NCBI GenBank assembly: GCA_903911795.1
Contig: CAIWEX010000329.1
Coordinates: 1 to 35,363, forward strand
Direction of reading: 5' to 3'
DNA: 35,363 nt
Source: an uncultured Schlesneria sp.
GTDB taxonomy: Bacteria; Planctomycetota; Planctomycetia; Planctomycetales; Planctomycetaceae
The notes under the pieces were generated by a model that had not been told where the DNA came from, made no database searches, and worked only from the letters and a program-made list of their open reading frames with translations. Positions 1 to 405 of this stretch are shown here, piece after piece; within the stretch, counting starts at the first letter, position 1, and the number at the start of each line of letters is the position of its first letter. A program made the translations under genes and the position numbers.

Positions 1-205
1 CTGGCTTGCGTTTCCCGTCGATCCCTGCTTCAATCCCTGCCCGCCGATTGGTGTAGGCCATGATCGCGGCTTCGGGGTCAGCCCATGGCCCGAAGTAGTA
101 CATTTTGCCTTTGATCTTTTTTGCCCATTGCCCGACAGCATGGGCGAACAGTGGAAAATCGTCAGATGGTTTCGCCGGTTTCAATGTCGCATCAGCTTTT
201 GCCAT
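1..205 (-). CDS. Site-specific integrase (tyrosine recombinase-like), N-terminal part
   Basis: The first 68 codons of a leftward gene that runs off the left edge. The ATG at 205-203 opens a frame without stops. Residues 17-41 contain FPLFAHAVGQWAKK and KMYYFGPW, followed by DPEAA, a pattern I associate with the N-terminus of planctomycete site-specific integrases (a small arm-binding-like region before the core-binding and catalytic domains). The catalytic R-H-R-Y residues lie outside the window, so recombinase activity is inferred. The same frame continues upstream to a TAA near 286, but with no ATG; 205 is the natural start. The tRNA-Lys gene and the CTACAC repeats lie just upstream, which fits an integrative element edge. 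Another phage-type DNA-binding protein is possible. Confidence 0.6.
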   Translation of the reverse strand, partial: MAKADATLKPAKPSDDFPLFAHAVGQWAKKIKGKMYYFGPWADPEAAIMAYTNRRAGIEAGIDGKRKP

Positions 206-224
206 TGGTTCGCCCCAGTGGTTG

Positions 225-300
225 CGGGTGTAGCGTTGACCGAAACGGGTGTAGCCGGTTCGGGTGTAGTGCAGGTGTAGTTTTTACCATTGCTCTACAC
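225..300. repeat. Cluster of CTACAC repeats before the integrase gene
   Basis: GGTGTAG occurs four times in the same direction (within 225-233, 246-254, 261-269 and 272-280), the first three as CGGGTGTAG, and once inverted as CTACAC at 295-300. The last direct copy and the inverted copy form GTGTAG-14 nt-CTACAC. Spacing of direct copies is 21, 15 and 11 nt. The position, between the integrase start and the tRNA, suggests arm-type integrase or excisionase sites or an operator. The repeats are visible; the role is inferred. Confidence 0.5.
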
Positions 301-332
301 AAATTGCAAGAAAACCCTGTTTTTCACGATCC

Positions 333-405
333 GAGTGCGTAGCTCAGTCGGTAGAGCAACGGACTTTTAATCCGTAGGTCTTGGGTTCGAGTCCCAACGC
401 ACTCA
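333..405 (+). tRNA. tRNA-Lys (anticodon TTT)
   Basis: A complete 73-nt cloverleaf. The acceptor arms are GAGTGCG (333-339) and CGCACTC (398-404), with discriminator A405. The D arm is GCTC...GAGC. The anticodon stem ACGGA/TCCGT encloses the loop CTTTTAA, giving anticodon TTT at 366-368. The T arm is TTGGG-TTCGAGT-CCCAA. No CCA is encoded. It carries lysine to AAA and AAG codons. An integrase gene lies 127 nt to its left, so this gene is a candidate integration site, although the integrase sits on the 5' side of the tRNA rather than on the more usual 3' side. Confidence 0.96.

Follow-up and report, generated by a model that had tools for sequence, protein, structure and literature searches.

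The window analyzed here is a stretch of 35,363 nucleotides that makes up the whole of contig C329 in a MAG (G000; 8.39 Mb in 1,338 contigs) whose sequence relatives are planctomycetes. ARAGORN finds one tRNA in it, a complete tRNA-Lys(TTT) at positions 333 to 405 of the forward strand. Divergent from this gene, an open frame starting MAKADATLKPAKPSDDFPLFAHAVGQWAKK (complement(<1..205)) holds the 68 N-terminal codons of an integrase; because position 1 is the end of the contig, the remainder of the integrase gene lies off it. The frame matches residues 5 to 61 of P0001, a full-length relative, at 54% (E = 2e-16), and alignment and a structure model place a putative arm-binding (AB) domain at positions 23 to 181 of the reverse strand. 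The preliminary description had an integrase gene adjoining tRNA-Lys and five CTACAC motifs, four direct and one inverted, between the two, and both statements were borne out: GTGTAG occurs at positions 228, 249, 264 and 275, and CTACAC at 295, all within the 128 bases between the genes. The direct copies belong to a seven-base form, GGTGTAG, found on the forward strand at 227 to 233, 248 to 254, 263 to 269 and 274 to 280 (99, 78, 63 and 52 bases from the tRNA), and we regard these as candidate arm-type sites. The inverted copy (295 to 300, reverse strand) differs from the seven-mer by one base. One extra hexamer lies within the integrase gene, at position 51, and eight are scattered over the approximately 35 kb past position 405, with at most one in any 128-base stretch. 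The entire window holds 14 hexamers where shuffles give 4.5, and the Poisson probability of at least five in one 128-base stretch is approximately 2e-10.

The preliminary description took this arrangement to be the attachment region of an integrated element whose body lies to the left, in which case a repeat of part of the tRNA gene might be found beyond the element. Such a repeat is present in the same genome, on a contig unjoined to the window in this fragmented assembly: G000:C481:336-375 (minus strand) is an exact 40-base copy of window positions 332 to 371, that is, of the 5' half of tRNA-Lys. The identity stops one base beyond the seven-base anticodon loop (positions 364 to 370, forward strand); the anticodon itself begins at tRNA position 34. 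The block lies in the interior of C481 (4,267 bases), with different DNA on its two sides. On the side toward the contig end we found CTACACC and a pair, GGTGTAG-C-CTACACC, matching the window motif; the opposite side holds a pair of open frames, 488 and 476 codons long and 32% alike. We read C481 as holding the native 5' half, now displaced, and take the 5' half in the window to have been supplied by the element. The rest of the integrase and the island body were not found in the MAG. With the duplication polarized in this way, positions 406 to 35,363 would be chromosomal flank outside the island.

A congener, G011, has the same features. Its tRNA-Lys is accompanied by the divergent, complete integrase P0001 (405 amino acids) and GGTGTCA repeats, and a separate contig carries a 41-base tRNA 5' half followed by TTACACC and GGTGTCATGACACC. 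The DNA directly upstream of the displaced halves ends, by eye, in GCAGGCTTC in both G000 and G011; in G010, where tRNA-Lys is intact, CAGGCTTC occupies the position of GCAGGCTTC, and the element sides differ (again by eye). A syntenic empty site was not found in the congeners examined. The right-flank gene at 591 to 1211 has matches in eight relatives, never adjoining their tRNA-Lys, and the C481 genes have matches of only 25-36% near the tRNA-Lys of three of those relatives, so no empty site was identified.

Three further observations concern these genomes. Between the core and the arm sites, both ends carry AGGGTTTTC (CAGGGTTTTC in the window's element end), at approximately 311 to 325 in the window and 275 to 290 in C481, oriented by eye away from the core; it is perhaps a site for a DNA-bending protein. 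A second such locus exists in the window's own genome (G000:C1255:5335-5667; L003, L139), where a weak AB-domain match (E = 1.04) and a tRNA-like stretch point away from each other, separated by DNA that contains GTTGTACACTCACAAC. In G009, contig C323 (L041) holds the 3' part of tRNA-Lys alone, at 1361 to 1413, and the complete tRNA-Lys is on C233; C323 may mark an ordinary island of the 3' type in that tRNA-Lys gene.

Relatives of the integrase are numerous. P0001 has matches at E ≤ 1e-20 in 83 of 297 genomes of the class and, at E ≤ 1e-30, in 59 of 170 genomes of the window's family and 29 of 95 of the family of G057. A sample of the phylum gave matches at E ≤ 1e-15 in nine of 392 genomes, the window's own included; two, G599 and G653, are outside the class. 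From 112 loci we removed 12 duplicates, recognized by exact 150-base match alone, and two loci without the N-terminus, leaving 98 non-redundant loci of which the window is one. A complete, divergent tRNA lies 5' of the integrase in 82 of them, a same-direction tRNA in three, and no tRNA in 13. The distance from the tRNA end to the start of the integrase match is 75 to 419 bases in the 82 loci, where ARAGORN distinguishes 18 tRNA kinds, most commonly Arg(CCT) (17) and Met (13). A later set of 43 loci (57, minus 13 already in the training set and one without the N-terminus) contained 36 with a divergent 5'-side tRNA, none with a same-direction tRNA and seven with none. A further batch of retrieved loci was left out of the analysis.

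At 20 loci with long contigs we searched a span of 40 kb for the displaced tRNA piece; five of the searches were extended to 100 kb and two loci were added, for 22 in all. A 5'-side tRNA is present in 21 of these (G156 has none), and in 18 of the 21 a displaced 5' tRNA piece lies on the same strand, on the integrase side, 7-72 kb away. Thirteen of the 18 pieces are exact over 34-54 bases and stop at tRNA nucleotides 38-41, which, together with the boundary at position 371 of the window, points to the anticodon loop as the site of strand exchange. The pieces of G164, G087 and G164:b are exact over 39-44 bases and that of G095 is 97.7% identical over 43 bases, with ends at nucleotides 40-45; the piece of G057:c is partial (nucleotides 1-28), with a degraded tRNA-Ala beside it. 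No displaced piece was found for G084:a and G003 within 100 kb or for G156:b within 40 kb, and the initial long-contig search gave no opposite-strand copies of at least 14 bases. The short, low-scoring hits that the extended search listed on one strand or the other (E 0.03 to 5.8) we attribute to chance. The 18 loci have the anatomy by which Islander recognizes an island (a tDNA, a cognate fragment in the same orientation, a 5' fragment lying upstream, and an integrase between), which the window itself shows across two unjoined contigs only. The preliminary reading of the window as an attachment region with the element's body to the left is thus supported by the C481 copy, the motifs, G011 and these related loci.

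Some loci have peculiarities of their own. In G057:c (L101, L121) the target tRNA-Arg is separated from the integrase by a tRNA-Ala, a neighboring tRNA that seems to travel with the element as well. G084:c (L105, L125) has a second, broken 5' piece at approximately 31.55 kb, and in G057:b (L100, L120) 58 of 60 bases upstream of the displaced piece agree with the element side; both are signs of tandem insertion at one tRNA. The elements of G220:C9 (L117, L137) and G095:C1 (L115) lie in a selenocysteine tRNA gene; their displaced 5' pieces are found at distances of 28 and 72 kb.

A perfect seven-base direct repeat, searched for with its first copy 30-100 bases from the tRNA, is present at 74 of the 82 loci (shuffles: mean 3.3, maximum 7); 59 of the 74 have a 12-base spacing and 61 start 50-59 bases from the tRNA. 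Among the hold-out loci, 32 of 36 have such a repeat, 27 of them at spacing 12. We then compared the two ends of 16 two-ended elements by the seven-mers that each element's ends have in common. The total score, 318, was equalled by none of 100,000 re-pairings, and mononucleotide-shuffled far ends reached at most 89. A repeated motif common to both ends was found in 15 of the 16, the exception being G057:c. The score of an element's own pair is the maximum of its row in just eight of the 16, because several elements share one motif class. At the far ends of 15 elements the motif is arranged in a few ways: nine, including those of the window and G011, have an inverted pair at approximately 107-124 and 114-133 bases; in five, two reversed copies lie at approximately 86 and 96 bases, and four of these five add a direct copy near 50 bases; G302 differs. 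The repeats look like arm-type integrase sites, and we treat them as candidates for that role.

Across the family the motif takes the form N1 N2 AC x CC (x = A or G) or an eight-base form with AA or TA, and its bases follow three residues of the AB domain. Residues are numbered as in P0001, so that 19, 23 and 25 correspond to F20, V24 and Q26 of the window integrase; 74 loci were labelled, seven of them by hand, and 70 were used for the counts. Where N1 is T, 32 of 35 loci have R at residue 25; where it is C, 20 of 22 have Q there. Residue 23 tracks the second base: beside Q25 it is N for G and S, A or V for T. At residue 19, loci with ACACC have F in 42 of 43 cases, those with ACGCC have Y in six of eight, and those with the eight-base forms have T in 17 of 19. 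For the window integrase, with F, V and Q at these positions, the expected motif is CTACACC, and this is the one observed; the window was among the 98 training loci. These integrases appear to read their arm motifs through a simple amino-acid-to-DNA code at residues 19, 23 and 25.

Such a correlation could also come from shared ancestry of the integrases alone, since related integrases share both residues and motif, and a quick tree of the catalytic part offers few independent pairs on supported branches (five and seven). The five pairs informative for residue 25 all agree (p = 0.0625); for residue 19, six of seven agree and none is opposite (p = 0.031). Against ancestry as the whole explanation, in leave-one-out prediction of N1 the residues were correct at 55 of 64 loci and the nearest catalytic-domain relative at 36 of 64, with the residue positions picked on the same data. 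A further check is given by the later loci, for which the prediction rule was fixed before they were gathered. Four of the 43 had no recognized AB pattern and 12 of the remaining 39 AB domains fell outside the rule. At the 27 predictable loci, which include L196 in G664, seemingly the same genome as training locus L008, the predicted motif occurred in at least two copies in 21, in one copy in three and not at all in three; other motif types reached two copies in three of 216 locus-motif tests. Where the nearest training integrase was less than 65% identical, the rule still succeeded at 15 of 20 loci, compared with 11 of 24 for a baseline that takes the motif of the nearest relative. Four integrases (L010, L011, L071 and L086) have tandem AB domains. 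L011 (R25 and Q25) carries TGACACC as well as CTACACC, two motif types that fit its two domains; L010 (F19 and Y19, both Q25) has three copies of CTACACC and one of CTACGCC; L086 (both Q25) has six copies of CTACACC; and L071 (both R25) has two copies of TGACACC, plus TGACTCC and CGACGCC. We consider ancestry alone an unlikely explanation, if the one that survives best.

The repeats could also be operators, serving integrase autoregulation or another regulator, rather than arm sites. They occupy the gap that separates the start of the integrase from the tRNA, the place expected for an integrase promoter, and arm sites of tyrosine integrases can overlap promoters. An operator, however, would not account for the same element-specific motif at the far end, distant from the integrase gene, nor for repeats that stand at set distances from the core and follow the AB residues in loci outside the training of the rule. 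Operators in place of arm sites thus seem slightly less probable still, and the repeats may serve as both. Candidate arm sites remain our preferred reading. It is improbable that the 5' half on C481 is an artefact of assembly or binning or an unrelated tRNA remnant: the MAG is in 1,338 contigs, none of which joins the two ends, but the block is internal to its contig with distinct DNA on either side, the motif beside it matches that of the window, and the same anatomy is found within unbroken contigs of other genomes. A chance neighborhood, or an ordinary island on the 3' side, to the right of the tRNA, is hardly credible even though most known tRNA islands are of the 3' kind, because the displaced piece is a 5' half on the integrase side in the window's genome and in its relatives.

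P0001 scores 16.6 bits against Pfam PF00589 (E = 0.0069), below the cut-off of 27.1. A model of a relative, L008 (pLDDT 78), has the tyrosine recombinase fold, with a Foldseek match to lambda Int (E = 9e-9) and VIA-align Z scores of 15-18 to Xer and lambda Int, and it aligns along lambda Int including the N domain. In the model of the window's AB domain (pLDDT 79), strands at residues 20-22, 26-31 and 34-40 precede a helix at 44-59; the top five VIA-align matches are integrase arm-binding domains or lambda Int, at weak scores (Z 3.4-3.9), and no Foldseek match is significant. In this model residue 19 lies in strand 1, residue 23 in the turn, and residue 25 at the start of strand 2. The putative arm-binding function of the domain is supported by the link between residues and motif. 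No relatives of the integrase were found in the PDB (by sequence) or in phage, plasmid or viral collections, and a 39-base tRNA half had no match in viral contigs.

Among 126 full-length integrases, K251 is present in 126, R333 in 125, H355 in 123 and Y366 in 125. The position that we take to be box I, by comparison with the known motif, is never Arg and is G in 118, with Arg elsewhere within residues 221-231 in seven; the first catalytic His is replaced by Tyr in 118. R249 and R256 are each present in all 126, and either may replace the missing first Arg. The substitute Arg of the CTnDOT integrase lies two residues ahead of the catalytic Lys, as R249 does here.

Seven elements could be delimited, at 7.0-16.7 kb, and 20 proteins chosen from them were scanned against Pfam. 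A DnaB-like helicase is present in the G089 and G302 elements, a D5-like primase-helicase and a phage capsid protein in that of G052, HTH_17 in G302, a terminase in G186, and AAA_25 in G302, G089, G057:a and G008; G057:a has peptidases or VMAP-C proteins bearing effector-associated domains. PADLOC gave weak matches alone, for two of ten proteins. With cargo this varied, the integrase family would move several kinds of island, some of them phage-related. The 11-kb elements of G052 (L098; capsid protein and D5-like primase) and G186 (L112; terminase) are candidates for small prophages or phage satellites. In G057:a (L099) a trypsin-like protease and VMAP-C proteins each have an EAD1 domain, and a subtilase is present as well; this cargo is possibly a conflict or defense module.

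Taken together, positions 1 to approximately 370 of the window are very probably one end of an island in the anticodon loop of tRNA-Lys, with a 5' half supplied by the element and arm sites read by the AB domain. The island would have entered the loop by tyrosine-recombinase recombination, its attP carrying a copy of the tRNA 5' half, so that the complete tRNA at 333 to 405 would consist of an element 5' half with element DNA upstream and a chromosomal 3' half, and the native 5' half, with its own upstream DNA, would have been left at the far end, on C481. The core-binding and catalytic domains would bind core sites in the anticodon stem-loop, and the N-terminal AB domain would bind the GGTGTAG/CTACACC arm sites in both flanks: four direct copies 52-105 bases from the tRNA at the window end, and one direct copy and an inverted pair at the far end. 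The element may also supply the promoter of the tRNA, and the island may be mobile at present. The best -10-like score, averaged over 15 sites, is 5.9 of 9 on the element side and 5.4 on the native side, which does not speak for or against a promoter from the element. Beyond this locus, we think it likely, with somewhat less assurance, that the integrases form a large planctomycete family with rule-like 5' tRNA entry, a three-residue arm code, dual reading by tandem AB domains, and catalysis that proceeds without the canonical first Arg.

Integration on the 5' side of a tRNA is documented as rare; in the integrase family described here it is the norm, across many hosts and tRNA kinds. With entry from the 5' side, an essential tRNA comes to have element DNA upstream of it, and since this is the family rule, the question of how the cell keeps such a tRNA expressed from element DNA becomes testable. 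Recognition of arm sites is usually worked out integrase by integrase. A code in AB residues, if true, would let sequence predict it, and perhaps let it be reprogrammed; it would also help to set the limits of such islands where genomes are fragmented, and offer a way into the study of intasome assembly. The exception known from CTnDOT would be extended by a family that lacks the first catalytic Arg.

The kind of system is already known. In the literature searched, mostly titles and the beginnings of abstracts, we recognized no planctomycete case and no description of a family-wide 5' mode or of an arm code derived in silico. Islander's tRNA islands, in the part of that account used here, are alike in having a complete tDNA, a cognate fragment and an integrase between, and anticodon-centered sites are one of its two site classes (PMC4383910). 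They differ in polarity: of 3,919 islands in the same excerpt, the fragment is 3' in 3,760 and 5' in 159 (PMC4383910), whereas the 5' fragment is the rule here. The preliminary remark that an integrase on the 5' side of the tRNA is unusual therefore holds for tRNA islands at large but not within this family. The pTN3-like integrases, which are archaeal, are alike in their 5'-half polarity alone. An archaeal recombinase review, in the portion drawn on, calls them unique in archaea in using the tRNA 5' half as attB, so that the tRNA is expressed from element DNA, and, with reference to Williams 2002, describes comparable bacterial cases as seldom encountered (PMC8371274).

With IntCTnDOT and IntDes the present family shares a first catalytic Arg that is absent or shifted: as excerpted from PMC8138268, CTnDOT integrases have a substitute Arg, and IntDes has a shifted Arg and a Tyr for the first His. 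The latter substitution, for which other cases are named in an extract of PMC3466309, is also that of 118 of our 126 integrases, and the likeness to IntDes is one of residue pattern only; IntDes is reported from Desulfovibrio only, its function there being given as unknown in the same excerpt (PMC8138268). In its proposed architecture the family resembles the heterobivalent integrases, lambda Int and those of the Tn916/Tn1549 type, which, in the passages cited, have arm-binding, core-binding and catalytic domains and arm sites on both arms (PMC4880445, PMC8138268); lambda Int is also the fold match of the L008 model. Compared with these, the present family has conserved 12-base direct repeats, motif classes tied to the AB domain, no first catalytic Arg, and the 5' half of a tRNA as its target.
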